This document shows positions 2,222 to 55,448 of a stretch of DNA of 55,563 nucleotides, one piece after another (within the stretch, counting starts at the first letter, position 1; each line of letters begins with the position of its first letter). The stretch lies in contig JAFUYM010000051.1 in NCBI GenBank assembly GCA_017470525.1, positions 1-55,563 on the forward strand, given 5' to 3'. A program made the translations under genes and the position numbers. The notes beneath the pieces were generated by a model. It was given only the letters and a program-made list of their open reading frames with translations, searched no databases and was not told where the DNA came from. This DNA comes from Bacteroidaceae bacterium (lineage in GTDB: Bacteria > Bacteroidota > Bacteroidia > Bacteroidales > Bacteroidaceae).

Positions 2222-2379
2222 TTTATCGCCTTCGGCGGACGAAGAAAAAACAGAAAAAAACAAGTAAAAACAAATAAAAATAGGTTCTTCTTGTTTTTAA
2301 CTGCTTTGACGAAGAAAATATTTTTCTCTATTTTTACTTGTTTTTTTCTGTTTTTTCTTCGTCCGCCGAAGGCGATAAA
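2222..2379. repeat. Long palindromic element, copy A
   Basis: The first and last 49 bp are perfect reverse complements. Each arm starts TTTAT followed by a mini-hairpin with stem CGCC/GGCG (2227-2237 and 2364-2374), then an A-rich run beginning GACGAAGAAAAAACAG. The middle is about 60 bp of AT-rich sequence. It fills the gap between the dtd stop (2382) and the deoC start (2189). Copies B, C and D near 52.6-55.4 kb share the same plan. Confidence 0.85.
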
Positions 2380-2381
2380 TA

Positions 2382-2834
2382 TCACTCTTTGTTTTTTGTA
2401 TCCATGCAAATCGTCACGGGTCCATCGTTCAACAGTTCCACCTTCATCTCTGCCCCAAACTCTCCTGAGGCAACAGGTTTGCCCAGTTGTTCCGATAAAA
2501 CCGCCAAAAACCGCTCATACAGCGGCACCGTCACCTCATGGCTTCCTGCCCTCAGATACGACGGTCGATTACCCTTCTTATAACTTGCCCACAGCGTGAA
2601 CTGGCTCACCACCAGAATCTCCCCACCTACATCCAACACCGACCGATTCATCACCCCATTCTCGTCGTCAAACACTCGCAAGTTACAGATTTTCTTCGCC
2701 AACCACTGTATATCCTCCTCATTGTCAGCATTTTCACATCCTAACAATACCAAATATCCCTGTCCGATGGAGCCTTTCACCTTGCCCTCAATCGTGACCG
2801 AGGCATGTGCCACTCTTTGTATAACTGCTCTCAT
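2382..2834 (-). CDS. dtd: D-aminoacyl-tRNA deacylase
   Basis: 150 residues, the usual length. The start MRAVIQRV, the SQFTLWA motif near residue 78 and NDGPVTI near residue 134 (the Gly-cisPro-type chirality motif region) identify the DTD family, which hydrolyses D-amino acids mischarged on tRNA. The gene follows uvrC by 20 nt in the same direction, so it is probably co-transcribed. The stop lies 3 nt from palindromic element A. Confidence 0.95.
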   Translation of the reverse strand: MRAVIQRVAHASVTIEGKVKGSIGQGYLVLLGCENADNEEDIQWLAKKICNLRVFDDENGVMNRSVLDVGGEILVVSQFTLWASYKKGNRPSYLRAGSHEVTVPLYERFLAVLSEQLGKPVASGEFGAEMKVELLNDGPVTICMDTKNKE

Positions 2835-2854
2835 AATTCTGTCTTCATTATTCT

Positions 2855-4672
2855 TTAGTCCTTAAATGCCTCCTGTATCAACTGAGCCTTCGATGCGCCC
2901 ACCACTTCTGCAAGTGCTTCGTGATCAGCCTCTTTGATGCGTTTTAGGCTCTTAAACTTCTTTAGCAACAGCGTCTTCGTCGCTGTGCCAATCCCTTTGA
3001 TGTGGTCGAGTTCCGACTCCGTCGTGTGTTTCGCCCGCTTCTGTTTGTGGAAAGTAATAGCAAAGCGGTGTACCTCATCCTGAATCTGTGTGAGCAACTT
3101 GAACAGAGGGCTGTCCATCTCGATGCCCACTACTTGAGCAGGGAAGCCAAAGAGGAGTTCGTTCGTGCGGTGATGGCTGTCTTTCGCCAATCCTGCAATG
3201 GGGATGTTGAGGTGCAATTGGTCTTCAATCACCTTTCTGACTACCTCCATTTGTCCCTTGCCGCCATCGGTGATGATGAGGTCGGGTAGGGGAGTCTCCT
3301 CTGCGATAGCACGGCTATATTTTCGGAAAACCACCTCGCTCATCGAAGCATAATCGTCGGGACCAATCACGCTCTTGATATTGTACTTGCGATAATCGTT
3401 TTTCGACTTTCTTCCACCGATGAAAACGACGCATCCTGCCACCGCATCCTGTCCCATGATGTTGGAGTTATCAAAGCATTCAATTCGCATGGGAATCTTC
3501 GGCAGTTTAAGTTTGCGTTGTAGTTCTTTCAGGATGTTCACATTTCGTTGGTCGGGATTGAGCCGCTCTGCTTGTTTCAGCGCATCAATGCGGTATTGTC
3601 GCACGTTTGCCTCCGACAGGAACAGCAGTTTCTTCTTGTCACCTGCTTTTGGCACGATAAATTCGGCATCTTTCAGCGTGAAATCCAACTCAAACGGCAC
3701 CACGATTTCTTTCGATTCGCTGCCATACTGTTCTCGCATGCTGACGATGGCAAGCGAAAGAATTTCTTCAGGTGTTTCGTCCAGCCGTTTTTTATATTCA
3801 TTAGTGAAAACGCGTGTGATACATCCGTTCACCACATGCATATAGTTCACGTATGCCTTGTTTTCATCGTCTTCAATGCTGAATACATCAATGTTCTGAT
3901 TCGTGCTGGTAATGACACGGCTCTTGCTGTCGAAATCTTTTGCAAGAAGGTATTTCTGCTTCACGTTTTCCGCTTCCAGGAACTTCTCCTTCTCTGCCAA
4001 TGACTGCATCTCATCGAGCAATTTCTGACAAAGATTCCGTGTGTTTCCACTCAGAATCTCCTTCACCTCCTCGATTTGCTGCAAGTATTCTTCTCGCGAT
4101 TGAAGCCCGACGCACGGAGCCTTGCATTTGCCAATGTCATAGTAAAGACAACTCCGAATCTTCTTCTGCTCAATCTTTTCTTGTGTGATGCTGGTGTGGC
4201 AAAGGCGCACTTGGTAGATTTTCCCGATGAGTTCCATCATGGCATTCAGTGTGCCCAAATGGCTGAAAGGGCCGAAATATGTCCCGTTCTTTTTGTCGAT
4301 GTTGCGTGTCTTGATGACCCTTGGCAGATACTCATTCGTGATGCAGACGGAAGGGTAGGTCTTGCCATCCTTCAGCAGAATGTTGTAGAAAGGCTGGTGC
4401 TCTTTGATGAGGTTGTTCTCCTGAATCAAGGCATCCTCGTCAGTCGGCACAACGACATATTTGATGTCTTGTATTTTGCTGACGAGGATTTGTGTCTTGC
4501 GATTCTTCGGTGAATTGTTGAAGTAAGAACTGACACGTCTCTTCAGGTTCTTTGCCTTACCCACATAAATCACCTTGCCATCTTTATCTAAGTATTGATA
4601 GCATCCAGGTTCTTCAGTGAGGCTGTTCACAATCACCTTCAGTCGTTGTAGCCTTTCTTCTTCTTTGGTCAT
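2855..4672 (-). CDS. uvrC: UvrABC system protein C
   Basis: 605 residues, the typical UvrC size. Order of domains: GIY-YIG nuclease at the N terminus (GCYQYLDKDGKVIYVGKAKN begins near residue 19) for the 3' incision, a UVR-type helical segment near 205-240, the RNase H-like 5' nuclease half (IECFDNSNIMGQ, VVFIGGRKSK), and a C-terminal helix-hairpin-helix region (IKGIGTATKTLLLKKF). It performs both incisions in nucleotide excision repair after UvrA and UvrB recognise damage. A parS-like palindrome sits 25-40 nt upstream of the start; apt lies further upstream in the same direction. Confidence 0.96.
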   Translation of the reverse strand: MTKEEERLQRLKVIVNSLTEEPGCYQYLDKDGKVIYVGKAKNLKRRVSSYFNNSPKNRKTQILVSKIQDIKYVVVPTDEDALIQENNLIKEHQPFYNILLKDGKTYPSVCITNEYLPRVIKTRNIDKKNGTYFGPFSHLGTLNAMMELIGKIYQVRLCHTSITQEKIEQKKIRSCLYYDIGKCKAPCVGLQSREEYLQQIEEVKEILSGNTRNLCQKLLDEMQSLAEKEKFLEAENVKQKYLLAKDFDSKSRVITSTNQNIDVFSIEDDENKAYVNYMHVVNGCITRVFTNEYKKRLDETPEEILSLAIVSMREQYGSESKEIVVPFELDFTLKDAEFIVPKAGDKKKLLFLSEANVRQYRIDALKQAERLNPDQRNVNILKELQRKLKLPKIPMRIECFDNSNIMGQDAVAGCVVFIGGRKSKNDYRKYNIKSVIGPDDYASMSEVVFRKYSRAIAEETPLPDLIITDGGKGQMEVVRKVIEDQLHLNIPIAGLAKDSHHRTNELLFGFPAQVVGIEMDSPLFKLLTQIQDEVHRFAITFHKQKRAKHTTESELDHIKGIGTATKTLLLKKFKSLKRIKEADHEALAEVVGASKAQLIQEAFKD

Positions 4673-4696
4673 ATATGTTACTTAAAGCGTTGCTTT

Positions 4697-4712
4697 TGTT
4701 CCACGTGGAACA
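4697..4712. other. parS-like ParB binding site 1
   Basis: TGTTCCACGTGGAACA is a perfect 16-bp palindrome. It matches the known parS consensus TGTTTCACGTGAAACA except for one symmetrical base change in each half; variants with this symmetrical change are known in other bacteria. It lies in the uvrC-apt gap, 700 bp from a second identical copy. Confidence 0.75.
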
Positions 4713-4790
4713 ATTCACCGTTAACTATCCCATAATCAGCCTGAAACGGACGGACGTTTGATGTTTAATGCAGGTTTTCTTCCGTCTTCC

Positions 4791-5327
4791 TTAGACGGTA
4801 AGAAGTGTTGTGATTTCAATTCCGTCTCCAATGGCTTCTCTGCCGTGTAGCCCTTCGTCGCGAATCTCCACAAGGAAGTTCATGTAGCACTTTCGTGGAT
4901 GTAGTTTCTGTACGAGTTTCCATGCGGCTTTGATGGTGCCGCCTGTGGCGAGGAGGTCGTCGTGCAGCAGCACCACATCGTTTGAGTCGATGGCATCCAG
5001 ATGAATCTCGATGGCATCGGTTCCATATTCTTTAGTGAAACTTTCTCTGATGGTGGTTGCAGGCAGTTTGCCCGGTTTGCGTGCCATGACGAATCCTGCA
5101 TTGAGACGGCGGGCAAGAATTGCTCCCATGATGTAGCCACGTGTTTCCAATCCTACCACCTTCGTGATGCCCTTGTCCTTGTAGATTTCATACAGTTGCT
5201 CCTCCATCATTTCAAGTGCCTTGGCGTCCTTGAAGAGGGTGGTTACATCGCGGAAGTTAATCCCTTTCTTGGGAAAGTCGGGAATGCTGCGCAAATGTTC
5301 TAATAGGTACTGATTGTTGAGTTCCAT
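4791..5327 (-). CDS. apt: Adenine phosphoribosyltransferase
   Basis: 178 residues, normal for the family. The PRPP-binding loop VVLLHDDLLATGGT is near residue 116, and FPKKGINFRDVTTL near residue 18 is typical of APRT. It makes AMP from adenine and PRPP in purine salvage. It lies between mnmG and uvrC on the same strand and is flanked on both sides by identical parS-like palindromes. No -7 promoter word was found directly upstream, so it is probably read from the mnmG promoter. Confidence 0.96.
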   Translation of the reverse strand: MELNNQYLLEHLRSIPDFPKKGINFRDVTTLFKDAKALEMMEEQLYEIYKDKGITKVVGLETRGYIMGAILARRLNAGFVMARKPGKLPATTIRESFTKEYGTDAIEIHLDAIDSNDVVLLHDDLLATGGTIKAAWKLVQKLHPRKCYMNFLVEIRDEGLHGREAIGDGIEITTLLTV

Positions 5328-5400
5328 TTTTTAGTTCTTTTGTATTGTTAGTTTTATCTCTTTTCGTAATTGTTTGATTTCTTATGTTCTACGCGCAAAT

Positions 5401-5416
5401 TGTTCCACGTGGAACA
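5401..5416. other. parS-like ParB binding site 2
   Basis: A second exact copy of TGTTCCACGTGGAACA, in the mnmG-apt gap. Read on the - strand its flanks (TTAAAGC...CTTTTG before, AATT after) resemble those of site 1 on the + strand, so the two sites and their flanks form an inverted pair around apt. Confidence 0.75.
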
Positions 5417-5427
5417 AAAGTGTTGCT

Positions 5428-7416
5428 TTAACGTCCCATGAGCACCAGCATGATGTTGATGTCGGAGGGCGACACACCTGGAATGCGTGAGGCTTGTGCC
5501 AACGTGACGGGTTGGATGGCTTGCAACTTCTGCCGTGCCTCGATGGAGATTTGGGTCATGTTGGGATAGTCGAACTTGCCCAGAATCTTGATGTTCTCCA
5601 GTCGGAGCATCTTCTCTGCTTGCTGTTGCTCGCGGTAGATGTAGCCCTTGTATTTGATTTGGATTTCTGCTGCTTCGATGATTTCCTCCCTGCGTGGGTC
5701 ATCCTTGAGGATGCGCTCCAGTTCCTTTTGGAGGGGAACGATGTGGGGTGCGATATTGTTGATGTTGATTTGTGGACGACCTAATAGTTCTTCCAATTTG
5801 CAGCCTTGACGGAGTGGGGTGGTGCCCAGTGCTTCGAGGGCAGGATTGATGAGGGAGGGCTTCAGCGAGAAGTTGGAGATGAAGTTGATGATGGCATCCC
5901 GCTTCTCTTTCTTCTCGGTCATCAGGCGGTAGCGTTCCTCGCTTGCCAAACCTAAGCGGTAACTGCGTTCCGTGAGGCGCATATCGGCATCGTCTTGACG
6001 AAGGAGGATGCGGTACTCGGCACGGGAGGTGAACATGCGGTAAGGCTCATCCACACCTTTGGTGACAAGGTCATCGATGAGGACACCGATGTAGGCTTCG
6101 TTTCTGCCTAAAGTGAAAGGCTCGCCACCATTGAGGGGGGTAGCGATGGCATCGCTGCGTAGAGAACCTTGTTGTTGGGGGGGCGTGAGGGGTGTGTTGA
6201 TAGAGGCGTTGGTGGAGGTTTTGGTAGAGGCGTTGATGGCGGCATTGATGCCGGCAATCACGCCTTGTCCTGCTGCTTCCTCATAGCCAGTGGTGCCGTT
6301 CACCTGACCTGCAAAGAAAAGGTTTTTCACCACTTTTGATTCAAGCGAATGGGTCAGTTGGGTGGGGTCGAAGAAGTCATACTCGATGGCATAGCCGGGA
6401 CGGTAAATCTCCAGATTCTTGAAAGCAGGAATTTGATGCAATGCCTTCAACTGGATGTCCAGAGGCAGAGAGGAAGAGAAGCCGTTCAGGTACATCTCAT
6501 TCGTCGTCTCTCCTTCGGGTTCGAGGAACAGCATGTGCTCGTCCTTGTCGGGGAACGTGTGCAGTTTCGTCTCGATGCTGGGACAGTAGCGAGGTCCGAT
6601 ACTTTGGATTTGTCCGTTATAGAGTGGGGAGTCTGCCAACCCCGAACGTAGCACCTCATGCACCGCGGTGTTGGTGTAACAAATCCAGCAAGGGAGGCTG
6701 TTGCGTTCAGATACTGCCGTGCGTTCCGTAGGCAGATACGAGAACTTGTGGAAGTCGTGGTCACCGTCCTGCCTTTCCATCAACGAGAAATCCACACTTC
6801 GTTTGTCAATGCGTACAGGGGTGCCCGTTTTCATTCTGCCAGCACGGATGCCATGTCGGGTGATGGATTCCGTCAGTTCCAAGGCTGCCGCTTCAGCACA
6901 CCGACCTCCAGGAATCTTCACCCTGCCGATGTGCATCAAACCATTCAAGAACGTGCCAGCCGTGATGATGACGCATTGGGCACGAAACTCCGCTCCATAA
7001 TACGTCTTTACTCCTTGAACTTTCTGATTTTCAACAACTAACTCTCTCACTTGGTCTTGCCAAATCTGCAAGTTAGGTGTGTTTTCCAGAATCTCTCGCC
7101 ATGTCCAGATGAACTTGGCGCGGTCGCATTGCGAACGAGGACTCCACACGGCAGGACCCTTCGAGAGGTTTAACATCCTGAACTGCAAACTGCAACGGTC
7201 CGTCACAATTCCCGTGAAACCGCCCAAAGCATCAATCTCTCTCACAATCTGCCCTTTAGCAATACCACCAATGGCAGGATTGCACGACATCTGCGCAATC
7301 TTGTTCATGTCCATCGTGATGAGACATGTCTTGGCACCCAAATTAGCAGCAGCGGCAGCAGCCTCACAGCCAGCGTGACCTGCTCCCACCACCACCACAT
7401 CGTAGTTGAAAATCAT
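5428..7416 (-). CDS. mnmG: tRNA uridine-5-carboxymethylaminomethyl modification enzyme MnmG
   Basis: 662 residues. The N terminus carries the FAD-binding VVVGAGHAGCEAA motif, then MSCNPAIGGIAKG and the long FAD/NADH domain; SRAEYRILLRQDDADMRLTE and the C-terminal PGVSPSDI region are typical. With MnmE it installs the cmnm5 group on U34 of several tRNAs. It is about 35 residues longer than expected, because of an in-frame insertion near residues 393-428, just before GGEPFTLGRNEAYIGVL (see separate entry). It heads the leftward cluster and has its own -7 promoter 24 nt upstream. Confidence 0.95.
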   Translation of the reverse strand: MIFNYDVVVVGAGHAGCEAAAAAANLGAKTCLITMDMNKIAQMSCNPAIGGIAKGQIVREIDALGGFTGIVTDRCSLQFRMLNLSKGPAVWSPRSQCDRAKFIWTWREILENTPNLQIWQDQVRELVVENQKVQGVKTYYGAEFRAQCVIITAGTFLNGLMHIGRVKIPGGRCAEAAALELTESITRHGIRAGRMKTGTPVRIDKRSVDFSLMERQDGDHDFHKFSYLPTERTAVSERNSLPCWICYTNTAVHEVLRSGLADSPLYNGQIQSIGPRYCPSIETKLHTFPDKDEHMLFLEPEGETTNEMYLNGFSSSLPLDIQLKALHQIPAFKNLEIYRPGYAIEYDFFDPTQLTHSLESKVVKNLFFAGQVNGTTGYEEAAGQGVIAGINAAINASTKTSTNASINTPLTPPQQQGSLRSDAIATPLNGGEPFTLGRNEAYIGVLIDDLVTKGVDEPYRMFTSRAEYRILLRQDDADMRLTERSYRLGLASEERYRLMTEKKEKRDAIINFISNFSLKPSLINPALEALGTTPLRQGCKLEELLGRPQININNIAPHIVPLQKELERILKDDPRREEIIEAAEIQIKYKGYIYREQQQAEKMLRLENIKILGKFDYPNMTQISIEARQKLQAIQPVTLAQASRIPGVSPSDINIMLVLMGR
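6129..6237 (-). repeat. In-frame repeat-like insertion inside mnmG
   Basis: The mnmG frame continues through about 36 extra codons rich in Thr, Asn, Gln and Pro (including PLTPPQQQGSL). The DNA contains the palindrome AGCGATGGCATCGCT (6142-6156), G-tracts, and near-tandem copies of GGCGTTG-type sequence. The extent is estimated by comparison with the remembered MnmG consensus, so the borders are approximate. Confidence 0.6.
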
Positions 7417-7502
7417 CTGTATTACATGTAATTGGGTTGCAAAGGTACGAAATAAAGTGAAAAGTGAAAAATGAAAAATGAAAAATTTGCTACCGCAGCA
7501 GT
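7393..7502. repeat. Direct repeat copy 1 (mnmG start and promoter region)
   Basis: From CACCACATCGTAGTTGAAAA (the first codons of mnmG, antisense) through its promoter to TTGCTACCGCAGCAGT, this segment recurs at 10346-10485 in the same orientation with scattered changes and one extra 20-bp palindrome. The two copies flank the 7524-10331 gene. Confidence 0.85.
7440..7447 (-). promoter_or_regulatory. -7 promoter element of mnmG
   Basis: Read on the - strand this is TACCTTTG, matching TAnnTTTG, about 24 nt before the mnmG start. Confidence 0.7.
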
Positions 7503-7523
7503 TAAAAGGAAAAACAAATGTTT

Positions 7524-10331
7524 TTACTTCATTTTATACAACTTATACTGGAAGGTCAGCAGCACATAGTGTGGATTGCCTGAACTGCGGCTCTCGCTTC
7601 GCCCTGTGCCTGTGATGTATGAGTTGAAAGTGCTTCGTTCGCGCAGAATGTCGTTCCATGTGAATTTCAGTAAACCTCTGTAGTCGCGTAGCACTTTATA
7701 TTCAATACCCGTATTCCAAATGAATTCTGTGCGGTTCCCGTCTCTCATCTTACTCCCAGCCTGTCCGGAAATGTTCAGGTCGGTCTTGAGGGTGAGCCTG
7801 TTTCCCAACCAATAGTTCAAGGTGCTGTTGAGGTTATACGTATGACTCTTTTCAATCGAAGTCATATAGTTGCTTTCGCCCCACTGGTAGCGATAGTTTC
7901 CATTTAGCGACAGGTCGAAATGCTTGATGTACAGCATGAATCGAGGCATGATGGAAAAGGACTGAACATCTGAAGAGCCCTTCCCACCCTCAGCGGCTCC
8001 TGACGCTTGCATGTAACTAACCGAATGGCTGTAACTATAGTTGGCATTTACACTGATATTTGCATACTTGAAGTCGGTTCGATAGGCGGCACTACTATTC
8101 AATCTCCAGTTGCCATTGATATTCTCCGATGTGGAGATTGTTCCTCCTGTCTTTGTGTTATAGATGGATCGAGATGAGATATCGTTGCGTGAGAAAGAAT
8201 AGGCGGCATTACACGACCATCCTCCACCCCAATTGGCATTCATGCTAAAGTTATGGGTCTCCGGCCTCTTGAGGTTCGGATTGGCTATACGGATGTAGAG
8301 CGGATTGTCGTTTGTGGTTGGTTGCACCAGGTTCGAGCCTCCAATCAAACGATTGTTATATAGGTATGCCAGGTTCACAGAATGATTCTGTGCGAAATTG
8401 TACGACAGATTGGACATCAGATTCAGCGTAGGTGCCTGCTGGGTGGTGTCAGCCATTACCCCGTCCTTGCGTTCATAGTGGTATGTTTCACGTGAAGGAG
8501 CGACTGCAACGTTTTGACTGAAGCCAAAGTTCTTGAAGTGGGTGCTGTAGTCAATTTCTATTTGGTGGGCATCTGTCTTTGTGCGTTGGTAGGTGCTGAT
8601 GCTATCCAATCGCTGGTGGTTGTTCATCAGGTCGTAAGAGATGCGCTCCGATTCATTATTATCGTGAGTGAATTCATACCTGAAGTCCACATTCTGGCGA
8701 AACGTTTTCGGACCAAAAGAGAAGCCGCCCCTTGCCGAAAAGCCGATACGTTCCGAATGAGTAGGAGAGATGTTTTCTCGCAGATAGCGCCACACACTGT
8801 CGCCATATTGCAGGTAATCCGTCTGTTGCCGTTCTGTCGATGATTGAAATCTGCTGTTCGTGTTCAGATTCATATTGACGTCAATGTGAGCATTCGCCTT
8901 TCTGCCAAAATACTGGTAAAAGTTACTCTGCAAAAAGAGCGACTGCTGATGCGAATGGCTCGAGGACTCACTGCTTCTGCGGTTCAGCGTGATGGCAGCC
9001 AATTGTTCCTCGTCCACCAGTTCGTTGTTTTCGCCCACAAATGGATTGCCGTTATAGGTGGCAGAGTTCGATTGGCTATGCGACTTAGAGTCGCTGTAGT
9101 TATAGCCTCCAGATGCATTCAAGCCGCCGCCTGTTTTTGTCCACTTATTGATGTTGAAGTCGTGGTTCGTGCTGTTGTTGTAGTTTTTCGACTGAGAAGT
9201 CGAAGTCGAATATTGCTCGTATTCTGGCATAATGGTCGAATTGAGGGATTCCCGCTCACTTCGCTGGTCTGTGTAAGAAAACTGGGGGCGATACTGTATC
9301 TGGGTTGTCCCAAACTGTCTTCTATAACTTCCGTTAATCCTGTTGTTGCTGTTTTTCTTCGAACTGGCATTGGGCAAATCGTCCAGTTGAACGTTTGCGT
9401 TCCACTCTCCCTTGTTGCCCTTCTTCCATTGCATGCCTTGCATCTGGAAATGATAGGTGTTTTTGATGTTCGACGTACCTATCTCCGGCTTCGTCATCTC
9501 CACCCTGTTCACTGGCTTCTTCGTAATCATGTCAGCCACCCAGTGCTTCGTGGTGTCCGTACTCAGCGTATCTGCCAGCGTCTTATATACCCGGAACTGC
9601 TTCAAGTCCGCGTTTTCGATGTTATCCAGTGCTAACTCCATATCATGCGCAAAGAACGACTCGCCATTCAGCCTGATTTCATGAATCACACTGTCCCTGT
9701 AGGTAAGTTGTCCGTCTTCATACCGCAATCCGGGCAGACGACGCACCAGGTTGAGCAACACCGTTCCCCGAGGCATCTCAAACGCCCCCACGTTAAACAC
9801 CGTCGTGTCGCCGCTCTCATACATCCGCTGCAACTCTCCGACAATCACCACCTCATCCATACTCATTGGCTTGCTTTTCAGCACGATGCTGTCGAGACTC
9901 AAACTCCATTCTCCCCCATAATTCTTATTGTTTTCGTCATAGTAGCGATATACCATCTTCAGGTCTTGTGTGTATGTTTCATATCCCACAAACGACACCT
10001 TCATCCTCACTCTGGGCACATCGTTCTTCTTCACACGCTTCTTCAGCACATTCATCCCCTGATAAAACCATCCGTTCTTGTCCGTCACCGCCACCGTCCT
10101 CACCGTCGTATCGTTCAGACACACCAACTGGATGTTCGCACTTGGAAGCGGATAAGGCTTGGGGTCCATCTCGTCTGTGCCGAAGATGCGACTAGACACG
10201 GTCAGTCTGATTTGCTCCCCCACCGTTCGACGCCCATTTGCCTGACCCCCAGAAACATACACATTCTGTGCCTGCATCCCAATCGACATGCAGAGCAGCA
10301 AAACAATCCATATAGCCTTATTCTTGTTCAT
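7524..10331 (-). CDS. Outer-membrane TonB-receptor-like beta-barrel protein
   Basis: 935 residues. A signal peptide (MNKNKAIWIVLLLCMSIGMQAQ) is followed by a carboxypeptidase-regulatory-like beta-sandwich domain (about 35-135), a TonB plug-like region containing DEVVIVGE and GESFFAHD (about 150-290), and a long Asn/Ser/Tyr-rich region of alternating beta strands ending FQYKLYKMK, as in Bacteroidetes OMP_b-brl_3 proteins. The family sits in the outer membrane; the ligand is unknown and there is no SusD partner nearby. Its promoter lies in a duplicated copy of the mnmG upstream region, so this gene appears to have been inserted between two direct repeats. Confidence 0.8.
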   Translation of the reverse strand: MNKNKAIWIVLLLCMSIGMQAQNVYVSGGQANGRRTVGEQIRLTVSSRIFGTDEMDPKPYPLPSANIQLVCLNDTTVRTVAVTDKNGWFYQGMNVLKKRVKKNDVPRVRMKVSFVGYETYTQDLKMVYRYYDENNKNYGGEWSLSLDSIVLKSKPMSMDEVVIVGELQRMYESGDTTVFNVGAFEMPRGTVLLNLVRRLPGLRYEDGQLTYRDSVIHEIRLNGESFFAHDMELALDNIENADLKQFRVYKTLADTLSTDTTKHWVADMITKKPVNRVEMTKPEIGTSNIKNTYHFQMQGMQWKKGNKGEWNANVQLDDLPNASSKKNSNNRINGSYRRQFGTTQIQYRPQFSYTDQRSERESLNSTIMPEYEQYSTSTSQSKNYNNSTNHDFNINKWTKTGGGLNASGGYNYSDSKSHSQSNSATYNGNPFVGENNELVDEEQLAAITLNRRSSESSSHSHQQSLFLQSNFYQYFGRKANAHIDVNMNLNTNSRFQSSTERQQTDYLQYGDSVWRYLRENISPTHSERIGFSARGGFSFGPKTFRQNVDFRYEFTHDNNESERISYDLMNNHQRLDSISTYQRTKTDAHQIEIDYSTHFKNFGFSQNVAVAPSRETYHYERKDGVMADTTQQAPTLNLMSNLSYNFAQNHSVNLAYLYNNRLIGGSNLVQPTTNDNPLYIRIANPNLKRPETHNFSMNANWGGGWSCNAAYSFSRNDISSRSIYNTKTGGTISTSENINGNWRLNSSAAYRTDFKYANISVNANYSYSHSVSYMQASGAAEGGKGSSDVQSFSIMPRFMLYIKHFDLSLNGNYRYQWGESNYMTSIEKSHTYNLNSTLNYWLGNRLTLKTDLNISGQAGSKMRDGNRTEFIWNTGIEYKVLRDYRGLLKFTWNDILRERSTFNSYITGTGRSESRSSGNPHYVLLTFQYKLYKMK

Positions 10332-10345
10332 AACTCTCCCGCCTT

Positions 10346-24933: not shown

Positions 24934-24936
24934 TGC

Positions 24937-46643: not shown

Positions 46644-47444
46644 ATGAACCCTCAGGCAGGTGAAATACTTATCTTCAACAAGCCCTATCGCTGGACTTCC
46701 TTCAACGTGGTGGCAAAAGTGCGAGGCGAACTCTCGCATCGGCTGGGCGTGAAGAAACTGAAGGTGGGGCATGCTGGCACACTCGACCCCTTGGCAACGG
46801 GGGTGCTCATCATCTGCACAGGCAAGAAGACTAAACTGATAGATGAACTCCAGGCACATACGAAAGAGTATGTAGCCACCATCAAACTCGGTGCCACCAC
46901 TCCCTCCTTCGATATGGAAACCACTGAAGATGCCACCTTCCCCACCGACCACATCACCCGTGCCTTGGTGGAGGAGAAACTTAAAGCCTTCCAAGGGTGC
47001 ATCGAGCAAATTCCACCCACCTTCTCAGCCGTGAAGGTCGATGGAAAACGCGCTTTCAAGTATGCAAGAAAAGGAGAGAACGTGGACCTGAAACCCAAAA
47101 TACTGGTCATCGACGAACTCGAAATCCTGCACTTTGGTGAGGTGGAGAACACATCCGATGACGAAGAGAAAGACCCACGGGAACGCATTAAGTATCAAAG
47201 TGGAAACTTGAAAGGTACCCACCTCTCCCTCACCATTCGCGTGGTGTGCAGCAAAGGCACCTACATCCGCGCCTTGGCACGAGATATCGGGTTGGCACTC
47301 GGTTCGGGCGGTTACCTCACAGGACTCATCCGCACTCGCATCGGCAAATACACACTCCACGACTGCATGGACATCAACGACTTTCCTGCATGGCTCGACA
47401 GCCAACCGCTCGAAATTTCCAAACCAGAAGAAACTTGTAAATAG
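46644..47444 (+). CDS. truB: tRNA pseudouridine(55) synthase TruB
   Basis: 266 residues from MNPQAGEILIFNKPYRWTSF. The catalytic aspartate lies in HAGTLDPLATGVLIICTG, and VVCSKGTYIRALARDIG is the later conserved motif. It makes pseudouridine 55 in the T loop of tRNA. Between FGEVENTS and the LSLTIRVVCSKG strand there are about 25 extra, highly charged residues compared with the remembered consensus. The gene starts 11 nt after uppP. Confidence 0.94.
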   Translation: MNPQAGEILIFNKPYRWTSFNVVAKVRGELSHRLGVKKLKVGHAGTLDPLATGVLIICTGKKTKLIDELQAHTKEYVATIKLGATTPSFDMETTEDATFPTDHITRALVEEKLKAFQGCIEQIPPTFSAVKVDGKRAFKYARKGENVDLKPKILVIDELEILHFGEVENTSDDEEKDPRERIKYQSGNLKGTHLSLTIRVVCSKGTYIRALARDIGLALGSGGYLTGLIRTRIGKYTLHDCMDINDFPAWLDSQPLEISKPEETCK

Positions 47445-47471
47445 CAAATAGTCAAATAGTAAGATAAAGAT

Positions 47472-48554: not shown

Positions 48555-48979
48555 TGCATACGGTTTATCTCTCACTCGGCACCAACCTTGGCAACAAGGA
48601 GCAGAACCTCCTGACAGCCATCAAGGAAATAGCAAGGCGGATTGGGTCTGTCAAGGCTCAGTCCGCCTTTATTGCTACCGAGCCATGGGGGTTCGACAGT
48701 CCTAACACCTTCCTTAATGCCGCCATCTGTGTCGAGACAGCGCTGTCTCCTATGGCACTGCTCCGCGAGACCCAACAGATTGAGCGCGACATGGGACGTA
48801 CCCAAAAGTCAACGGTCAACTCTCAACGGTCAACTCCCACCTATCACGACCGCATCATCGACATTGACATCCTCCTCTACGACGACCTCCACATCACCAC
48901 CCCCACACTCACCATCCCCCATCCACTTATGTATGAACGTGACTTCGTGCTCATACCATTAAAAGAAATTCTGACATGA
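48554..48979 (+). CDS. folK: 2-amino-4-hydroxy-6-hydroxymethyldihydropteridine pyrophosphokinase
   Basis: 141 residues. YLSLGTNLGNKEQNL at the N terminus, FIATEPWGFDSPNTFLNAA (pterin binding) and RIIDIDILLYDD (metal-binding aspartates) followed by IPHPLMYERDFVLIPL identify HPPK. It transfers pyrophosphate from ATP to the pterin in folate synthesis. A short in-frame tandem duplication (48809-48836, encoding part of KSTVNSQRSTP) lengthens the loop before YHDR. Start and stop overlap the neighbours. Confidence 0.94.
   Translation: MHTVYLSLGTNLGNKEQNLLTAIKEIARRIGSVKAQSAFIATEPWGFDSPNTFLNAAICVETALSPMALLRETQQIERDMGRTQKSTVNSQRSTPTYHDRIIDIDILLYDDLHITTPTLTIPHPLMYERDFVLIPLKEILT
48809..48836 (+). repeat. 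14-bp tandem duplication inside folK
   Basis: TCAACGGTCAACTC is repeated perfectly (48809-48822, 48823-48836). It resembles a family of TCAAC-type intergenic simple repeats I associate with Bacteroidales genomes, here retained in frame within a surface loop. Confidence 0.8.
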
Positions 48980-51153
48980 AAAAAATCATTCTTTTCGTTC
49001 TTTTTGCCTTTCTCACCTTTCCACTTATGGCACAGAAAAAACTCTTTACCCTCGACGACCTCATCCCTGGCGGTTCCACCTACTATGCACACTCTTATCC
49101 CGAAAGCAAGTACCTTACGTGGTGGGGTGACGCTTGCATGGAGTTGGGCATCGAACGTTGCAAGAACATCGACCAGCAGGTGATAAGCGACGCACTCAAC
49201 ACGTTGACCTTGCAAAACATCAACGACATCCTTGCTGCCAACGGCAGGAAGACCATCGACCACTTTTACAACGCCACCTTCCCTTACCCCTACAAGACCT
49301 ACATCCTCATCGACCGTGGCAGAGAGAAGACGCTTCTCGACTGGGTGGAGAAACGAGTCCTATGGAAACTCGACCTTTCCCCCGAAGCCAGCAACACCGA
49401 CTGGAACACCCAATCCCGGTCCGCCGCCTACACCATCAACCATAACCTCTATGTCGCCACAGCCGACGGCACCCTCCACCCTGTCAGCACCGATGGCAGC
49501 CTCGACCTCGTCTATGGCGAGAGCGTCCACCGCGACGAGTTCGGCATCGAGAAAGGCACCTTCTGGAATCCCGACGGCACCCTTCTCGCCTTCTACAAGA
49601 TGGACCAAAGCATGGTGTCCAAATATCCACAGGTGAACATCACCTTCCCCTTTAACACCCCCGACGGTGAGTCCCGATGTGCTCAAACGGCTCCCGACCC
49701 CTATCCCATGGCGGGTGAGACCTCCCACAAAGTCTATGTCGGCATCTTCGACCCACAGACCGACAAGACCATCTACCTGAATACAGGCGACCCTACCGAC
49801 CGCTACTACACCAACATCGCCTGGTCGCCCGACGGCACACGCCTTTACCTCATCGAACTCAACCGCGACCAGAACCACGGTTCCCTCGACGAATACGATG
49901 CCCTCACCGGCGAGAAACTTCGTACCCTTTTCACCGAGGACAACCCCAAGTATTTCGAGCCACGCACCCCCATCCAGTTCCTCCCCTGGAACAAGAACCA
50001 GTTCATCTATCAGACCCGTCGCGACGGCTACAACCACATTTATTTATATAATAAGGACGGCAAGTGCCTCAAGCAACTCACCGCCGGTGCCTTCGAAGTG
50101 ATTGACGTGCTCGGCTTCAACGAGGAGCAGAAAACCATCCTCTACACCTCCAACGAGAAAGACCCGCTCCAGCGGAACGTCTTCAGTGTCAATCTGAAAG
50201 GTAAGCGTACCCTGTTGGGCAACAGCACGGGCTGGCATAATGCCACCCTCTCCGAGTCGGGTCGTTTCTTCATCGACAACTACTCCTCACCCCTCATCGC
50301 CCGCCACATCGACCTCGTCTCCACCGATAAAGGCACAGCCACCAACATCCTTTCCGCCACCGACCCGTGGGCTGCCTACCAAGTGCCTACCATCAAGGTT
50401 GGCACCCTCAAGGCTGCCGACGGCGTGACCGACCTCTACTACCGCCTCATCCTCCCCACCAACTTCGACCCCAATAAACAGTATCCTGCCGTCGTCTATG
50501 TCTATGGCGGTCCTCATGCCCACAACATCGATGCCACCCGCAACTGGGGAGCCCGTGGTTGGGACATCTGGATGGCACAGCAAGGCTATGTCATGTTCTG
50601 CCTCGACAATCGTGGTAGTGAGCATCGCGGACTCGACTTCGAGCAAGCCACCTTCCGTCACCTCGGCGTCGAAGAAATGAAAGACCAACTCCAAGGAGTG
50701 GAATACCTCAAGAGTCTCCCCTACGTTGATGCCAACCGCCTCGGTGTACACGGCTGGAGTTTCGGCGGCTTCATGACCACCAGCCTCATGACCACCTACC
50801 CCGATGTCTTCAAGGTCGGCGTGGCAGGCGGTCCCGTCATCGACTGGCGATTCTACGAGGTCATGTACGGCGAACGCTACATGGACACCCCGCAGTCTAA
50901 CCCTGAAGGTTACGAAGAGAACTCCTTGCTCCGCAAAGCCAAGAACCTCAAAGGTCGTCTCCTCGTCATCTACGGAGGAAACGACCCTGTCTGTGTGCCT
51001 CAGCACACCCTCTCCTTCATGCGCGCCTGCATCGATGCTGGCACCTATCCAGACCTCTTCACCTATCCGGGCGATGGTCACAACATGATGGGTACCGACC
51101 GAGTCCACCTTCACCACACCATCACCCGCTACTTCGAAGACCATCTGAAATAG
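48976..51153 (+). CDS. Prolyl oligopeptidase family S9B (dipeptidyl peptidase IV-like)
   Basis: 725 residues with a signal peptide (1-19, ending MAQ). A beta-propeller N-terminal domain (about 60-480; WSPDGTRLYLIELNRD, GFNEEQKTILYTSNE) is followed by an alpha/beta hydrolase domain with the nucleophile in GWSFGGFM, the acid in GGNDPVC and the histidine in GDGHNMMG. The family releases X-Pro dipeptides, and related enzymes have broader dipeptide specificity. Probably periplasmic. The start overlaps the folK stop by ATGA, so this peptidase is translationally coupled to the housekeeping operon. Confidence 0.92.
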   Translation: MKKIILFVLFAFLTFPLMAQKKLFTLDDLIPGGSTYYAHSYPESKYLTWWGDACMELGIERCKNIDQQVISDALNTLTLQNINDILAANGRKTIDHFYNATFPYPYKTYILIDRGREKTLLDWVEKRVLWKLDLSPEASNTDWNTQSRSAAYTINHNLYVATADGTLHPVSTDGSLDLVYGESVHRDEFGIEKGTFWNPDGTLLAFYKMDQSMVSKYPQVNITFPFNTPDGESRCAQTAPDPYPMAGETSHKVYVGIFDPQTDKTIYLNTGDPTDRYYTNIAWSPDGTRLYLIELNRDQNHGSLDEYDALTGEKLRTLFTEDNPKYFEPRTPIQFLPWNKNQFIYQTRRDGYNHIYLYNKDGKCLKQLTAGAFEVIDVLGFNEEQKTILYTSNEKDPLQRNVFSVNLKGKRTLLGNSTGWHNATLSESGRFFIDNYSSPLIARHIDLVSTDKGTATNILSATDPWAAYQVPTIKVGTLKAADGVTDLYYRLILPTNFDPNKQYPAVVYVYGGPHAHNIDATRNWGARGWDIWMAQQGYVMFCLDNRGSEHRGLDFEQATFRHLGVEEMKDQLQGVEYLKSLPYVDANRLGVHGWSFGGFMTTSLMTTYPDVFKVGVAGGPVIDWRFYEVMYGERYMDTPQSNPEGYEENSLLRKAKNLKGRLLVIYGGNDPVCVPQHTLSFMRACIDAGTYPDLFTYPGDGHNMMGTDRVHLHHTITRYFEDHLK

Positions 51154-51196
51154 TCGACGAAAAGGGTATTAGCATTAAATAAGTTTGTTTTGATTT

Positions 51197-52543
51197 TTAC
51201 TCCCAGTAGAGTTTTTGGCTGTTGATGTCCCACTTGTGGTCTTTGGGGAAATCGTCACCTTCCCATGCTTTCTTGCTGGTCCACTTCTCGGCAGGATCTG
51301 TCCAGAAGGAGTCGGTCTCAGGCAGTCCGAGGGGAAGGAAGGCGAGGCTGGTCATGTAGAGCGAGCCGTTGTTCGTGTACCAGTCTGCCACGTTGGGATG
51401 AGGACCCACGAATCCGATAGTGAGGAAGCCACCTTCGTTGTAGTTCTTACTCAAGGCTTTGGCAGATTGGGCAGGGTTCTCCACCTGTCCGAAGAACATG
51501 CGGTTGGCGACAGCGGTGATGGCGGCGCGAACCTGTCCGTTGTGCAGTTCCTTGGGCAGTTGCTTACGCCAGGCGAGTTGTGCCAGAGGCTGGAGGGTTG
51601 CCATGCGGTAGGGGATGCTGCGTCCCACCACGGGGAAAGTGCCTTCGGGCGAGATGAAGCGTTCGAGGATGACCGACCACTTCTGCATGCGCTTGCGCAC
51701 TTCCTGTAGGCGGTTTTTGGCACCGCGCACCTTGTCGTTGCCAGAGCCGAAGATGAGGTAACTGCCATTAGGGTTGCGGGCGGAAATCATCTCCAGACAT
51801 TCCACATACATGGGCTGGATGACGAAAGAGTTGTAGTAGTCGAAGGCAAACGAGGGACCGTCGCTGTAGATGCCGTCGCCGATGTACCATTCTTCCACCT
51901 TTGCCATTCCCATCTTGATGCGGTAGGGGTCGTAGGGCGCACCGACATACATGAGGAAACTTTCTTCCATTGCCACGAAGAGCAGCCAGTTGGTGTAGGG
52001 CGGGTCGTAACGGCGCAATCCCTGGATTTCCTTGATGTAGAGGTCTTTGGTCTCTTTGGGCAGTGGCACCCAGAGGGAGTCGTAGCCACGGTAGAGTCCT
52101 TCCACCACGTAGGCTCCATCGACGAGGGTCTGACCTCCGTTTTCCCATCCGAGCCGGTCGGGCGATTTGGGGTCAACGGCATTGATGATTGCCTTGCGTG
52201 TCCATTCGCGCAGTTGCTTGCGCTTGGCACTTTCGGGAGTGTCATCGTCGGGCAGGTTGAGCCACGGAGCCAGTCCTGCCAAGAGGCGGCCGAAGGCTTC
52301 CATGTATGCCACTTTCTTGTCGCGGTTGTCCCATGTGGGGGACAATTCGAGGTTTTTGTTGCCGCCAGCGGTGTCCATCACTTGCTGAAGTTTGCCCTCT
52401 GCCATATTCTTCATGACAGGTTCAGCCATCTGATACATGATATCGACCCACACTTCGCGGTCTGTCTTTTGCTTGCCCTTGGGGGCAGCAGCCATGCTTG
52501 CACACACGCATGCAAGCAGCATCGTCAAGGTTAGTTTTCTCAT
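51197..52543 (-). CDS. Secreted DUF2264 domain protein
   Basis: 448 residues with a signal peptide (about 1-19, ending near MAAA). The long helical body has WYIGDGIYSDGPSFAFDYYN and FISPEGTFPVVGRSIPYR, which fit DUF2264, a family with an alpha/alpha-toroid fold found beside polysaccharide utilisation genes. A glycan-degrading role is possible but unproven. No sugar-utilisation genes are adjacent. It is convergent with the S9B peptidase. Confidence 0.85.
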   Translation of the reverse strand: MRKLTLTMLLACVCASMAAAPKGKQKTDREVWVDIMYQMAEPVMKNMAEGKLQQVMDTAGGNKNLELSPTWDNRDKKVAYMEAFGRLLAGLAPWLNLPDDDTPESAKRKQLREWTRKAIINAVDPKSPDRLGWENGGQTLVDGAYVVEGLYRGYDSLWVPLPKETKDLYIKEIQGLRRYDPPYTNWLLFVAMEESFLMYVGAPYDPYRIKMGMAKVEEWYIGDGIYSDGPSFAFDYYNSFVIQPMYVECLEMISARNPNGSYLIFGSGNDKVRGAKNRLQEVRKRMQKWSVILERFISPEGTFPVVGRSIPYRMATLQPLAQLAWRKQLPKELHNGQVRAAITAVANRMFFGQVENPAQSAKALSKNYNEGGFLTIGFVGPHPNVADWYTNNGSLYMTSLAFLPLGLPETDSFWTDPAEKWTSKKAWEGDDFPKDHKWDINSQKLYWE

Positions 52544-52570
52544 TGTTGATTTGTTAATTAGTTACTGAAG

Positions 52571-52768
52571 TTTCGGATGTAATTTTACCGCAAGCGGTCT
52601 TTGAAAAACCATAAAAAACAAGAAAAAACCATAAAAAACAATATGAGGTTTCAAGTTCTTTATGATGAATATGATTGGTTTTTTGAGGTTTTGGCTACGC
52701 CGAGCTAAAGGTTCTTTGGTTTTTTATGGTTTTTCTAAAGACGCGCAGCGTTAAGAAGAACTTCCGAA
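52571..52768. repeat. Long palindromic element, copy C
   Basis: Left side: TTTCGGATGTAATTTT, a mini-hairpin ACCGC-AA-GCGGT (52587-52598) and the run GAAAAACCATAAAAAACA. Right side: the mirrored run, then a mini-hairpin ACGC-GCA-GCGT (52741-52751) and CTTCCGAA. The last 110 bp (52659-52768) recur inverted at 55339-55448 with one mismatch, in a hairpin loop. Confidence 0.85.
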
Positions 52769-52775
52769 CGTTAAA

Positions 52776-53369
52776 TTAGTTATATCTTGCAAATTCTGTG
52801 ACTAAGTCGCCATGCATGAGGACGAGGCTGTCGGTGGTCAACTGCATGATTTCGAAGGAATCGACCAGGGCAGGGGATTCGTCGCCCACTTTCTTGGGAG
52901 AGTGGAGCAGCAGGAGCCCGTCTTTCACTTCCCAGGAGTCGTAGTCGATGGTCATGTTGTAGGTGGTGGCACGACCGCCCGAGTTGAGTTCGAGGCTCTG
53001 TTCCCGTCCGTCGGCACCGCGTTGCGACCAGATGTGTTGCAGGGAGGTGAGGTTCACTGCCACCGAAGCAAAGAGGTCTTCCTTGCTGACGTTGTAGATG
53101 ACTTCCAGTTCGTCGCCCACGGTCACGCCGCCCATGACGGATTGCCCGTTCTTGCTGATGTAGAGTGTGTCGCCATCGTCGTTCACGAACTCGATGACGT
53201 TCATGCTGGTGCCGTCGCCGATGGTGCCGTGTGCCTCGTAGATACCCGGTATTTCGTCGAGTGGTTTCACTTCCACTTTCGGTTTTGGGGCATCTTTCTT
53301 TCCCTTCTCTTCGCAGGAGAAGAGCATCAGTGCCGCCAGTGCCAGCACTGCCATAGAGAGTTTTTTCAT
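52776..53369 (-). CDS. Lipoprotein with lipocalin-like domain
   Basis: 197 residues. Lipobox LFSC with Cys19, then EEKGKKDAPKPK, a charged linker, and about 150 residues of beta-rich sequence (IPGIYEAHGTIGDGTSM, TLYISKNGQSVMGG, TTDSLVLMHGD) resembling lipocalin-like lipoproteins. The function is not known. It has its own promoter at 53398. It sits inside the 2.6-kb segment bracketed by inverted repeats C and D. Confidence 0.75.
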   Translation of the reverse strand: MKKLSMAVLALAALMLFSCEEKGKKDAPKPKVEVKPLDEIPGIYEAHGTIGDGTSMNVIEFVNDDGDTLYISKNGQSVMGGVTVGDELEVIYNVSKEDLFASVAVNLTSLQHIWSQRGADGREQSLELNSGGRATTYNMTIDYDSWEVKDGLLLLHSPKKVGDESPALVDSFEIMQLTTDSLVLMHGDLVTEFARYN

Positions 53370-53397
53370 GTTTTCTTCTCTGGTTTGATTTGTGGGG

Positions 53398-53405
53398 CAA
53401 ATTTA
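53398..53405 (-). promoter_or_regulatory. -7 promoter element of the 53369 lipoprotein gene
   Basis: Read on the - strand: TAAATTTG, 28 nt before the start at 53369. Confidence 0.65.
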
Positions 53406-53449
53406 CATAAAAATTTTGATGTATAAGCCCACCACCATAAAAAATATCA

Positions 53450-53680
53450 ATTATCGGAATAATTTATCGTTAATTTAAGTTTCGGATGTGTTTATTACGC
53501 TTCGCGTGACGAAGAAAAAACAGAGAAAAACAAGTAAAAACAGAGAAAAATATGTTCTTCTCAATACAGAAGACCTATTTTTATTATTTTCATCTATTTT
53601 TCTCTGTTTTTTCTTCGTCACGCGAAGCGTAATAAACACATCCGAAACTTAAATTAACGATAATTTGTTCCGATAATTTT
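53450..53680. repeat. Long palindromic element, copy B
   Basis: Two arms of roughly 80 bp. The inner 67 bp of each (from 53464 and up to 53663) are essentially perfect reverse complements: TTATCGTTAATTTAAGTTTC, then CGGATGTG, the mini-hairpin ACGC-TTC-GCGT (53497-53507; mirrored at 53620-53630) and GACGAAGAAAAAACAGAG. Outside, ATTATCGGAA continues the match imperfectly. It fills most of the 53370-53858 gap between divergent genes. Confidence 0.85.
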
Positions 53681-53810
53681 TTTCATTCTGTGGAGCGTGA
53701 AAAAATTGCTTTTTTCCGCTTTTTGAGGACAAATGGAACCTAAAAGGGGACTTTTTTGTAGTTTTTTTGAGAAAAAGTCCCTGAGAGGGGGAAATCATTC
53801 AAAAAAACTC

Positions 53811-53818
53811 TAACTTTG
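53811..53818 (+). promoter_or_regulatory. -7 promoter element of the OmpA-family gene
   Basis: TAACTTTG, about 41 nt before the ATG at 53859. Confidence 0.65.
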
Positions 53819-53858
53819 CCGCGACAATCAAATATTCATCTCAAAAACTAATACGAAT

Positions 53859-55133
53859 ATGAAAAAAATTTATGTGCTTATGGTGACAGTCTTCCTGATG
53901 GGAGTCTGCGTTCCCGAAGTGAATGCACAGGGCATTCTTGGAAAAATTAAGGATAAGGTGAAGGAAAAGGTTGACCAGAAGATTGACAATGCCATCAATG
54001 GTGCGGTCAATGATGTCGACAAGACCGCCACGGATAAGGTGAAAGGCAAAAAAGGAAAGGCGGACGATGATGGAGGGTATGAGGATGCAGAAGAGGGTGT
54101 GGACAATCCAGATGCGGCGACTTCTTCTGATTTTAAGCGTGGCGAGGTGATTATGTTCCAAGATGATCTGGAAAAAGAACCCGTTGGCGAGTTCCCCTCG
54201 AAGTGGGATTTGATTGATGGTTCAGCCGAGGTTAAGACGCTTGGTGGAAAGAAGGGCATCGAGGTAACCAATAATGGCTACATCACGCCTTTGATAGAGG
54301 AGCAAGGAGCATATCTGCCTGAAGAGTTTACCATCGAATATGATTTTTATTATTGGAATGACAAAGGAAACATAGGCCTAAACGATGTCAAACTAGTGAT
54401 CGCCAATACTAAAAACCGCTCTGAAAGAGCAGATGAACCTGCTCGTGCTGCTTTCATATTACAACATCCTGTTAATGATAATAGAAGTTGTGTTTTCCGT
54501 TATAATAATGGAACGTGGGGAGATTGTAAGGATACAGGATTCGAACATACCTTCAAGCAGGGTTGGCATCATGTGGCTGTTTCGTTCAACAAGCGTGCTT
54601 TGAAGGCGTATATCGACGGAAAGCGCGTTGTGAATCTACCCAGAGTACAGCAAGGTACATGGTTTGGCTTCCAGGTGCCGTTCGACTACCACGACTTGAC
54701 CTTTATCCGCAATGTTGTATTGGCCAAGGGTGCTGTTGCTCTCTATGACCGCGATGCACAGTCGATGACTGCTGTTGAGAAAGCCATTGCCGAGACGGGT
54801 AAATTTGTCACCAACAACATTCTTTTCGAGACAGGCAAGGCAACGTTGAAGCAGGAGTCGATGGCTGAGATTCAGAAGGTGGCTGAGTATATGAAGGCGA
54901 ACCCGACTGCTCGCTTTGAGGTGCAGGGACACACCGACAATCAAGGCTCTGACGCCATCAACGACCCGCTGTCTCAGCAACGTGCCGAAGCCGTGGTGAA
55001 GACACTGGAAGGTATGGGCGTGGACGGTTTCAACCTGAAGGCGGTCGGCAAGGGTTCCCATGTGCCTGTGGCTGACAACAAGACCGAGGCAGGCAGGGCA
55101 CAGAACCGCCGCGTTGAATTCATTAAGAAGTGA
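53859..55133 (+). CDS. OmpA-family protein with a lectin-like middle domain
   Basis: 424 residues. Signal peptide (1-23, ending VNA), then a Lys/Asp-rich helical linker (GKIKDKVKEKVDQKIDNAIN), a beta-sandwich region (about 105-290; FTIEYDFYYWNDKG, HHVAVSFNKRALKAYIDGKR) that looks like a concanavalin/laminin-G-type jelly roll, and a C-terminal OmpA domain (about 315-424; NILFETGKATLK, FEVQGHTDNQG, LSQQRAEAV and AGRAQNRRVEF) that binds peptidoglycan. It probably links the outer membrane to the wall while presenting a binding domain. Confidence 0.88.
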   Translation: MKKIYVLMVTVFLMGVCVPEVNAQGILGKIKDKVKEKVDQKIDNAINGAVNDVDKTATDKVKGKKGKADDDGGYEDAEEGVDNPDAATSSDFKRGEVIMFQDDLEKEPVGEFPSKWDLIDGSAEVKTLGGKKGIEVTNNGYITPLIEEQGAYLPEEFTIEYDFYYWNDKGNIGLNDVKLVIANTKNRSERADEPARAAFILQHPVNDNRSCVFRYNNGTWGDCKDTGFEHTFKQGWHHVAVSFNKRALKAYIDGKRVVNLPRVQQGTWFGFQVPFDYHDLTFIRNVVLAKGAVALYDRDAQSMTAVEKAIAETGKFVTNNILFETGKATLKQESMAEIQKVAEYMKANPTARFEVQGHTDNQGSDAINDPLSQQRAEAVVKTLEGMGVDGFNLKAVGKGSHVPVADNKTEAGRAQNRRVEFIKK

Positions 55134-55243
55134 GAGCAAAGATGAATGCCTGCATTCAGTCTTTGCCGAGCGCCGCAATGAATCGACGAAGTCAATTCAT
55201 CAAGAAATAAGTGGGTTTTATACCCCTTCCACAGCCATGCAAT

Positions 55244-55313
55244 CGGACTGCTCCAGTCCGACGTGCCGCACTGCTCCAGTCCGATGCATCGGACTGGAGC
55301 AGTCCGTTTTTGA
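55244..55313 (+). terminator. Terminator with two competing left arms
   Basis: Right arm TCGGACTGGAGCAGTCCG (55289-55306) followed by TTTTT pairs perfectly with 55244-55261 and, with 15 nt, with the nearer copy at 55270-55284. Each arm is also a small palindrome. It lies about 110 nt after the OmpA-family stop. Confidence 0.75.
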
Positions 55314-55338
55314 CCTTTTTTTAATTCATAATTCAACT

Positions 55339-55448
55339 TTCGGAAGTTCTTCTTAACGCTTCGCGTCTTTAGAAAAACCATAAAAAACCAAAGAACCTTT
55401 AGCTCGGCGTAGCCAAAACCTCAAAAAACCAATCATATTCATCATAAA
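55339..55448. repeat. Long palindromic element, partial inverted copy D
   Basis: Reverse complement of 52659-52768 with a single mismatch, located in the loop of the mini-hairpin ACGC-TTC-GCGT (55356-55366). The match ends abruptly at 55448, where unrelated sequence begins. Confidence 0.9.

Follow-up and report, generated by a model that had tools for sequence, protein, structure and literature searches.

Palindromic repeats in a Bacteroidaceae genome are probable gene-less derivatives of cassettes that carry a GxxExxY nuclease gene between inverted arms

The stretch analysed here (the window) is the whole 55,563-nt contig JAFUYM010000051.1 of the Bacteroidaceae bacterium assembly GCA_017470525.1, contig C50 of a draft genome of 3.24 Mb in 83 contigs that is 83% complete. 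Three of the four repeat elements in it are long palindromes beyond chance. These palindromes are probably gene-less, non-autonomous derivatives of small cassettes in which a gene for a GxxExxY protein stands between an arm and its inverted counterpart; the encoded nuclease would act on its own arms, and copies would spread. Comparison among loci and genomes shows that the cassette unit exists and recurs, that three arm families are dispersed, that arm sequence matches protein lineage and that both arms of a cassette change together; we infer that the GxxExxY nuclease drives the movement of the palindromes.

Open reading frames (ORFs) were found between inverted arms of two of the window's families, at C1:19111-19693 (type A) and C42:29425-30060 (type B). 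The genes concerned (C1:19231 and C42:29566) match PF13366 (PDDEXK_3) and TIGR04256 (GxxExxY) only, with hidden Markov model scores above the curated cut-offs. The genome has seven PF13366 matches, five of them distinct, and an identical GxxExxY pair occurs on contigs C45 and C54 of genome G000, probably through assembly redundancy. For each gene, the downstream 350 nt were reverse-complemented and the upstream 350 nt aligned to them; a gene was taken to have arms when it beat all 100 dinucleotide shuffles of the downstream side. All five distinct genes lie between inverted arms by this measure, and they represent five arm families: A, B, family 2, family 4 (AACAACGAATTTGACGAAT-like) and family 5 (AATTCATGAATT-like). 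As regards MITEs of a classical insertion sequence, which share terminal repeats with a transposase gene, no transposase was seen between the arms in the loci that were read; the genome was not searched for all insertion sequence families.

The same arrangement is common across the genus. The genus set comprised 98 GxxExxY genes from 41 genomes (103 matches minus five duplicates or fragments), with 86 other ORFs of at least 100 residues in the same loci as controls. Arms were detected at 77 of the 98 genes and at 2 of the 86 controls, and an arm score of at least 40 was reached at 60 and 0, respectively. In a non-redundant subset 48 of 66 genes beat the shuffles. Genes were tested in 31 genomes, and 28 of these have one or more genes with arms. 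A second set (80 genes, 275 controls) was drawn from named genomes, mostly Bacteroidota, with Acidobacteria, Planctomycetota, Nostoc, Methylococcaceae, Desulfobacteraceae and others; the nearest named relatives of the genus proteins come from Prevotella assemblies, so the bacterium of the window is probably Prevotella-like as well. Here 60 of 80 genes beat the shuffles compared with 12 of 275 controls, and 29 compared with 6 scored at least 40. One of the controls with inverted repeats is an S23-like gene (locus L285, recognised by eye). On this sequence evidence the gene-between-arms unit recurs in several bacterial phyla, and it may be an overlooked kind of mobile DNA.

The GxxExxY protein is a single-domain PD-(D/E)XK protein. 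A D...ExK pattern is present in 95 of the 98 genus proteins (one of the three exceptions, L200, holds ECK), and the D and E-x-K are invariant in two alignments of 15 and 40 sequences. A model of the Nostoc protein (predicted local distance difference test score 94.8) gave structural matches of moderate Z to SSO0001 (4ic1, 9.7), a Spirosoma restriction-endonuclease-like protein (8.4) and Hjc (7.1); Foldseek returned no match at E 0.001. The model and the catalytic motif support a PD-(D/E)XK fold, not a substrate. In the library searched, and as far as their text was available, papers that name GxxExxY, TIGR04256, PDDEXK_3 or PF13366 describe no inverted repeats around the gene, and we found no role for the protein there.

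Arm sequence follows protein lineage. We compared 60 cassettes with scores of at least 40, using only sites that their flanks did not mark as orthologous; some orthologous sites may have been missed by this grouping. Alike arms (score at least 40) were found in 40 of 79 pairs at protein identity above 0.65, in 9 of 144 pairs at 0.5-0.65, and in only 1 of 1469 pairs at 0.5 or less. The Mantel correlation of arm and protein was 0.355, compared with a maximum of 0.107 in 500 element permutations. Type A matches are also commoner in genomes that have a gene of the A/B clade (Mann-Whitney p 1e-4).

Three of the arm families (A, B and family 2) are dispersed as gene-less copies; the first-pass annotation of the window had described a dispersed family, and more copies were indeed found in the genome. 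Three arm types, A (GACGAAGAAAAAACAG), B (TCTTTAGAAAAACC) and C (CCTTTAGAAAAACAAG), were distinguished, and the element searches returned 85 and 69 match rows in the genome. The last 15 bases of the type A arm start have 12 exact genome copies, and the reversed-pattern control has 0. Merging gave about 58 places of types A, B and C. The two copies that bear a gene, places with family 2 alone and one piece at a contig end are excluded from this count, and one place, present on two contigs, has probably entered it twice. One B element with identical flanks occurs at both C3:9028 and C56:7504, probably another case of assembly redundancy. Mapped relative to genes, 52 of these places are outside ORFs and six are inside an ORF of at least 80 residues; 15 have no neighbour in the fetched stretch, and the 37 that could be classified lie between tandem (21), convergent (12) or divergent (4) genes.

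Dispersal was counted genome-wide for A, B and family 2; in the loci read, family 4-like arms also occur away from the gene, and family 5-like words occur in flanks. Family-2 arms were found in 11 of the 41 genomes. All five genomes with the family-2 gene (a same-site cluster) have further match rows besides the gene flanks (34, 3, 6, 9 and 2, with 34 in the genome studied here; one full palindrome gives two rows), and 6 of the 36 other genomes have family-2 arms with no gene detected. From the arms of named non-Bacteroidota loci we took the pattern CACGCAAAGRCGCAAAGRCGC and searched eight of their genomes for it. It has 35 matches in Nostoc, 45 in a Planctomycetota genome and 11 in an Acidobacteria genome; two in each are gene flanks by position, leaving 33, 43 and 9 elsewhere. 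Two further genomes (G051 and G052) have 4 and 6 matches, of which 2 and 5 are gene flanks, and three have none, two of these (L268 and L256) having other arms at the gene. The reversed-pattern control gave 0 in all eight.

The elements of the window and their parts are as follows (hairpins and arm start were read from the sequence; "counted" marks ends included in the hairpin count below).

2222-2379, no strand: type A palindromic element, gene-less; 69-nt arms 93% complementary; fold z -18.0
2227-2237, + strand: left mini-hairpin CGCC-TTC-GGCG; counted
2238-2253, + strand: type A arm start GACGAAGAAAAAACAG
2364-2374, - strand: right mini-hairpin CGCC-GAA-GGCG; counted
52571-52768, no strand: type B palindromic element, gene-less, with unlike hairpins at its two ends; fold z -6.0; 69 match rows in its own genome
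52587-52598, + strand: left mini-hairpin ACCG-CAAG-CGGT, the commonest B end
52693-52711, - strand: short inserted module GGCTACGCCGAGCTAAAGG, in one arm only; the same module is in A, B and family-2 arms elsewhere
52741-52751, - strand: right mini-hairpin ACGC-GCA-GCGT; counted
53450-53680, no strand: composite, with a type A element (~53480-53651) inside outer arms that match palindrome family 2 (TTATCGGAAYAAWTTATCG); 101-nt arms 90% complementary; fold z -27.8
53497-53507, + strand: left mini-hairpin ACGC-TTC-GCGT; counted
53620-53630, - strand: right mini-hairpin ACGC-GAA-GCGT; counted
55329-55448, - strand: truncated type B element with a single arm, an inverted near-copy of 52659-52778 (98% identity; 117 of 120 positions identical)
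55356-55366, + strand: mini-hairpin ACGC-TTC-GCGT; counted
55396-55414, + strand: module CCTTTAGCTCGGCGTAGCC, by sequence comparison

The z-scores of the first three elements were computed with short flanks. The element at 2222-2379 occupies most of the spacer between two same-strand ORFs, the inverted arms of 52571-52768 are 27 nt long and 85% complementary, and bases 203-231 of the composite as query match family-2 places in the genome. The annotation had described four palindromic elements of a common plan, of which these three are long palindromes with mini-hairpins that pair with themselves. In the region of 55339-55448 the search for inverted arms found none and the fold was no better than shuffles (z -0.44); this sequence repeats the right half of 52571-52768 almost exactly, in inverted orientation, and so is not a complete element. 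It had also been stated that two copies differ only in the hairpin loop. Inside the hairpin this is true of the second and fourth elements (loop TGC versus TTC), with two more mismatches further out; it does not apply to the third and fourth.

Smaller modules lie within the arms. The 19-nt module CCTTTAGCTCGGCGTAGCC, flanked by AA, is found inside type A, B and family-2 arms (52693-52711, 55396-55414, L071, L084, L086 and L108), and in both arms at C27:796 and C33. In its variant TTGACTTCGTCGAGC (L084, L090 and L108) both sides of the small stem are altered, from GGC/GCC to GAC/GTC. We take the module to resemble very small dispersed repeats. Type A arms at L084 (C27:2480-2779), L089 (C37:114395) and L114 (C76:9447-9684) carry another inserted hairpin module, CTTGGGAGCGTTGCCCCAAG, which in C27 stands at mirrored positions in both arms. 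Family-2 palindromes have a common one-sided tail like CAAATTTACATAAAAATCTTGATTTATAAGCCC (L074, L079, L104, L117 and window ~53390-53460), on whose opposite strand there is a sequence like TAnnTTTG, the Bacteroidetes -7 motif; this may be a promoter that the palindromes carry or that lies next to them. Adjacent to the fourth element, at ~55240-55306, is a cluster of another short repeat, CTGCTCCAGTCCGA, in both orientations, and similar words adjoin the C65 copy. At L084 a palindrome of a third family (AAACAAATTTGAATAATATGAATAATTTTG) is split by half a B element, with AATRTGAAT on both sides, a possible 9-bp duplication in a single case that is ambiguous, as the host repeat has internal repeats. 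A third palindrome, nested in C7, C24 and C27, looks by eye like the arms of the GxxExxY cassette of G022 (L185).

At the site of 2222-2379 the orthologous spacer is 5-69 nt in 28 of 29 relatives, which lack the element. The remaining relative (G003) has a 119-nt spacer of unlike, family 5-like sequence. The element was therefore inserted in this lineage, or was lost many times. As a check for target-site duplication, the orthologous spacers are too variable to fix the boundaries of the element.

The mini-hairpins were counted at 84 ends of types A, B and C from loci of this genome, about three of which are matches that lie outside elements. The complete four-pair stem forms at 28 of the 31 A ends, at 35 of the 40 B ends and, in the same register, at 0 of the 13 C ends; nine of the C ends keep three pairs, and three form four pairs when shifted by one base. 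The assertion that the stems always pair was too strong, and what stands is an excess: 63 of the 84 ends have four pairs, whereas 500 re-dealings gave 19.3 on average and 31 at most. Only three stems are common (CGCC/GGCG, ACGC/GCGT and ACCG/CGGT), with one rare compensated variant (ATGC/GCAT), so that independent compensatory events are few in any one genome. Further stems occur in the A/B clade across the genus (GCGG/CCGC, GCGA/TCGC, CGCACC/GGTGCG and GCCGC/GCGGC); outside this clade such mini-hairpins are not general. Structure is held while sequence varies, if through few independent events per genome.

The compensation had been read as selection on structure. Pairing of the arms could also arise from template switching during replication, in which case compensation would be silent on function. 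Arms were compared at six orthologous sites. The two arms of a cassette are together more similar than arms from different species in 58 of 60 pairs when protein identity is 35-80%, and in 17 of 22 pairs when it is 80-93% (53 of 60 and 5 of 22 under a stricter criterion), the pairs sharing sites and not being independent. The two arms of one element therefore change together, for which selection on structure is only one route; replication template switching could do likewise, and homogenisation of arms by this process is described in the available text of PMC8604942 and PMC8794818. However, a single element often has unlike hairpins, each paired with itself, at its opposite ends (C48:30603 and C49:34805 are examples), a feature that the annotation had not noted; this argues against copying of whole arms, which would erase the difference. 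We regard template switching in place of selection on a recognised structure as unlikely, though a serious alternative.

It is less likely still that the palindromes move by other means, through a Y1 transposase acting in trans or through host replication and repair, with the GxxExxY and S23 genes as tolerated cargo in the loop. The position between arms is indeed held by two different small protein families. Of 30 tested genus genes with PF05635 (the 23S rRNA intervening sequence (IVS) protein, S23), 25 have arms that beat all shuffles and 19 score at least 40. In these loci (L346-L375) the arms are of the same kind as those of the GxxExxY cassettes, and many consist of short-period repeats. 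One S23 arm pattern is dispersed in G003 (10 + 14) and rare in G021 (2 + 1); G000 has a single match, with 3 mismatches, and the control gave 0. The genome studied here has no PF05635 match at E 1e-5. There are also published RAYT-like genes with repeated inverted repeats on their flanks ("TIRtrons", in the part of PMC3733652 available), and one Y1_Tnp gene was found in the 83%-complete draft. Against this explanation, the arms follow the protein lineage across sites, a fit that random cargo would not show. The flanks of the Y1_Tnp gene, moreover, contain no inverted repeat that exceeds shuffles, and the gene lies apart from the family: in the 14.7 kb around it, the only family arms are one B copy ~10 kb off and one 2-mismatch B-arm match ~2 kb off.

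A repetitive extragenic palindrome (REP) doublet system (REPIN) moved by a RAYT transposase had been suggested at the outset. Like the REPINs of RAYT (REPtron) systems, many A and B elements have two inverted hairpins (type C is imperfect in this respect), gene-less copies outnumber gene-bearing ones, and most lie outside ORFs, mainly between tandem or convergent genes. They differ in their long, A/T-rich arms, in having no GTAG tag beside the hairpin at the printed A and B ends (read by eye, with no pattern count), and in having no link to a RAYT gene; the single Y1 gene found is unlinked and has no arms, and a different gene, GxxExxY, sits between the same arms. We consider a RAYT origin very improbable. 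We give equally little weight to a host function as terminators or mRNA 3'-end hairpins under selection with an incidental GxxExxY link, which would suit the scarcity of divergent neighbours and the strong RNA folds of three window elements, but not its absence, at the one site that was examined, from 28 of the 29 relatives, and which leaves the gene-bearing copies and protein-specific arms unexplained. The related proposal of a structured RNA may hold for a by-product; the window has no Rfam match at gathering score, and here too the gene-bearing copies are unexplained.

Among the closest published parallels are the TIRtrons, or TIRYT (Di Nocera et al., 2013, PMC3733652); PMC6006769 names TIRYT too. 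In the available text of PMC3733652, as here, a short gene lies between long inverted repeats, sometimes of a dispersed family, and some species have several such genes per genome; the GxxExxY cassettes share the defining feature of a gene flanked by inverted repeats of a dispersed family. The gene in TIRtrons encodes an HUH tyrosine transposase, whereas that of the cassettes encodes a PD-(D/E)XK GxxExxY protein. In the IVS of Coxiella, a small ORF for S23 likewise lies in the stem of terminal inverted repeats (PMC4990558, as far as its text was available); this IVS is within 23S rRNA, whereas the window elements lie between protein ORFs and their gene-bearing relatives encode a nuclease. The REPs tagged with CGTC have no known transposase, stems of 8-9 bp and loops of 4-5 nt in the available part of PMC3733652. 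In type A, CGTC lies beside the stem by virtue of the anchor used; B and C have no tag, and stems in the window family are 4 bp, with loops of 3-4 nt (3 nt in type A).

Returning to the GxxExxY cassettes as the source of the palindromes, the nuclease would recognise the hairpin or cruciform into which its own arms fold when DNA is single-stranded or supercoiled, and would cut it. The cut product would then be repaired or replicated, with joining by the host, and copies would so be placed elsewhere, mostly between genes; gene-less copies would be born by internal deletion and moved in trans. Template switching may keep the two arms alike. More tentatively, at somewhat less than even chances, GxxExxY and, in parallel, S23 genes may form a widespread class of selfish hairpin cassettes that have no transposase or recombinase, in which the encoded protein alone, a structure-specific PD-(D/E)XK nuclease or a four-helix bundle that binds nucleic acid, works on the cruciform that its arms form, so that families of gene-less palindromes are seeded.

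Short palindromic repeats often have no partner enzyme, and GxxExxY proteins are encoded in many genomes. The link between the two gives an orphan nuclease a candidate substrate and the repeats a candidate driver, and it suggests one architecture common to TIRtrons, S23 cassettes and GxxExxY cassettes. The question of what moves palindromic repeats in the absence of a RAYT becomes testable with a 125-residue protein and a short oligonucleotide. If the reading is true, hairpin cassettes would explain much otherwise unexplained intergenic repeat content in bacteria from Prevotella-like species to Nostoc and Planctomycetota.

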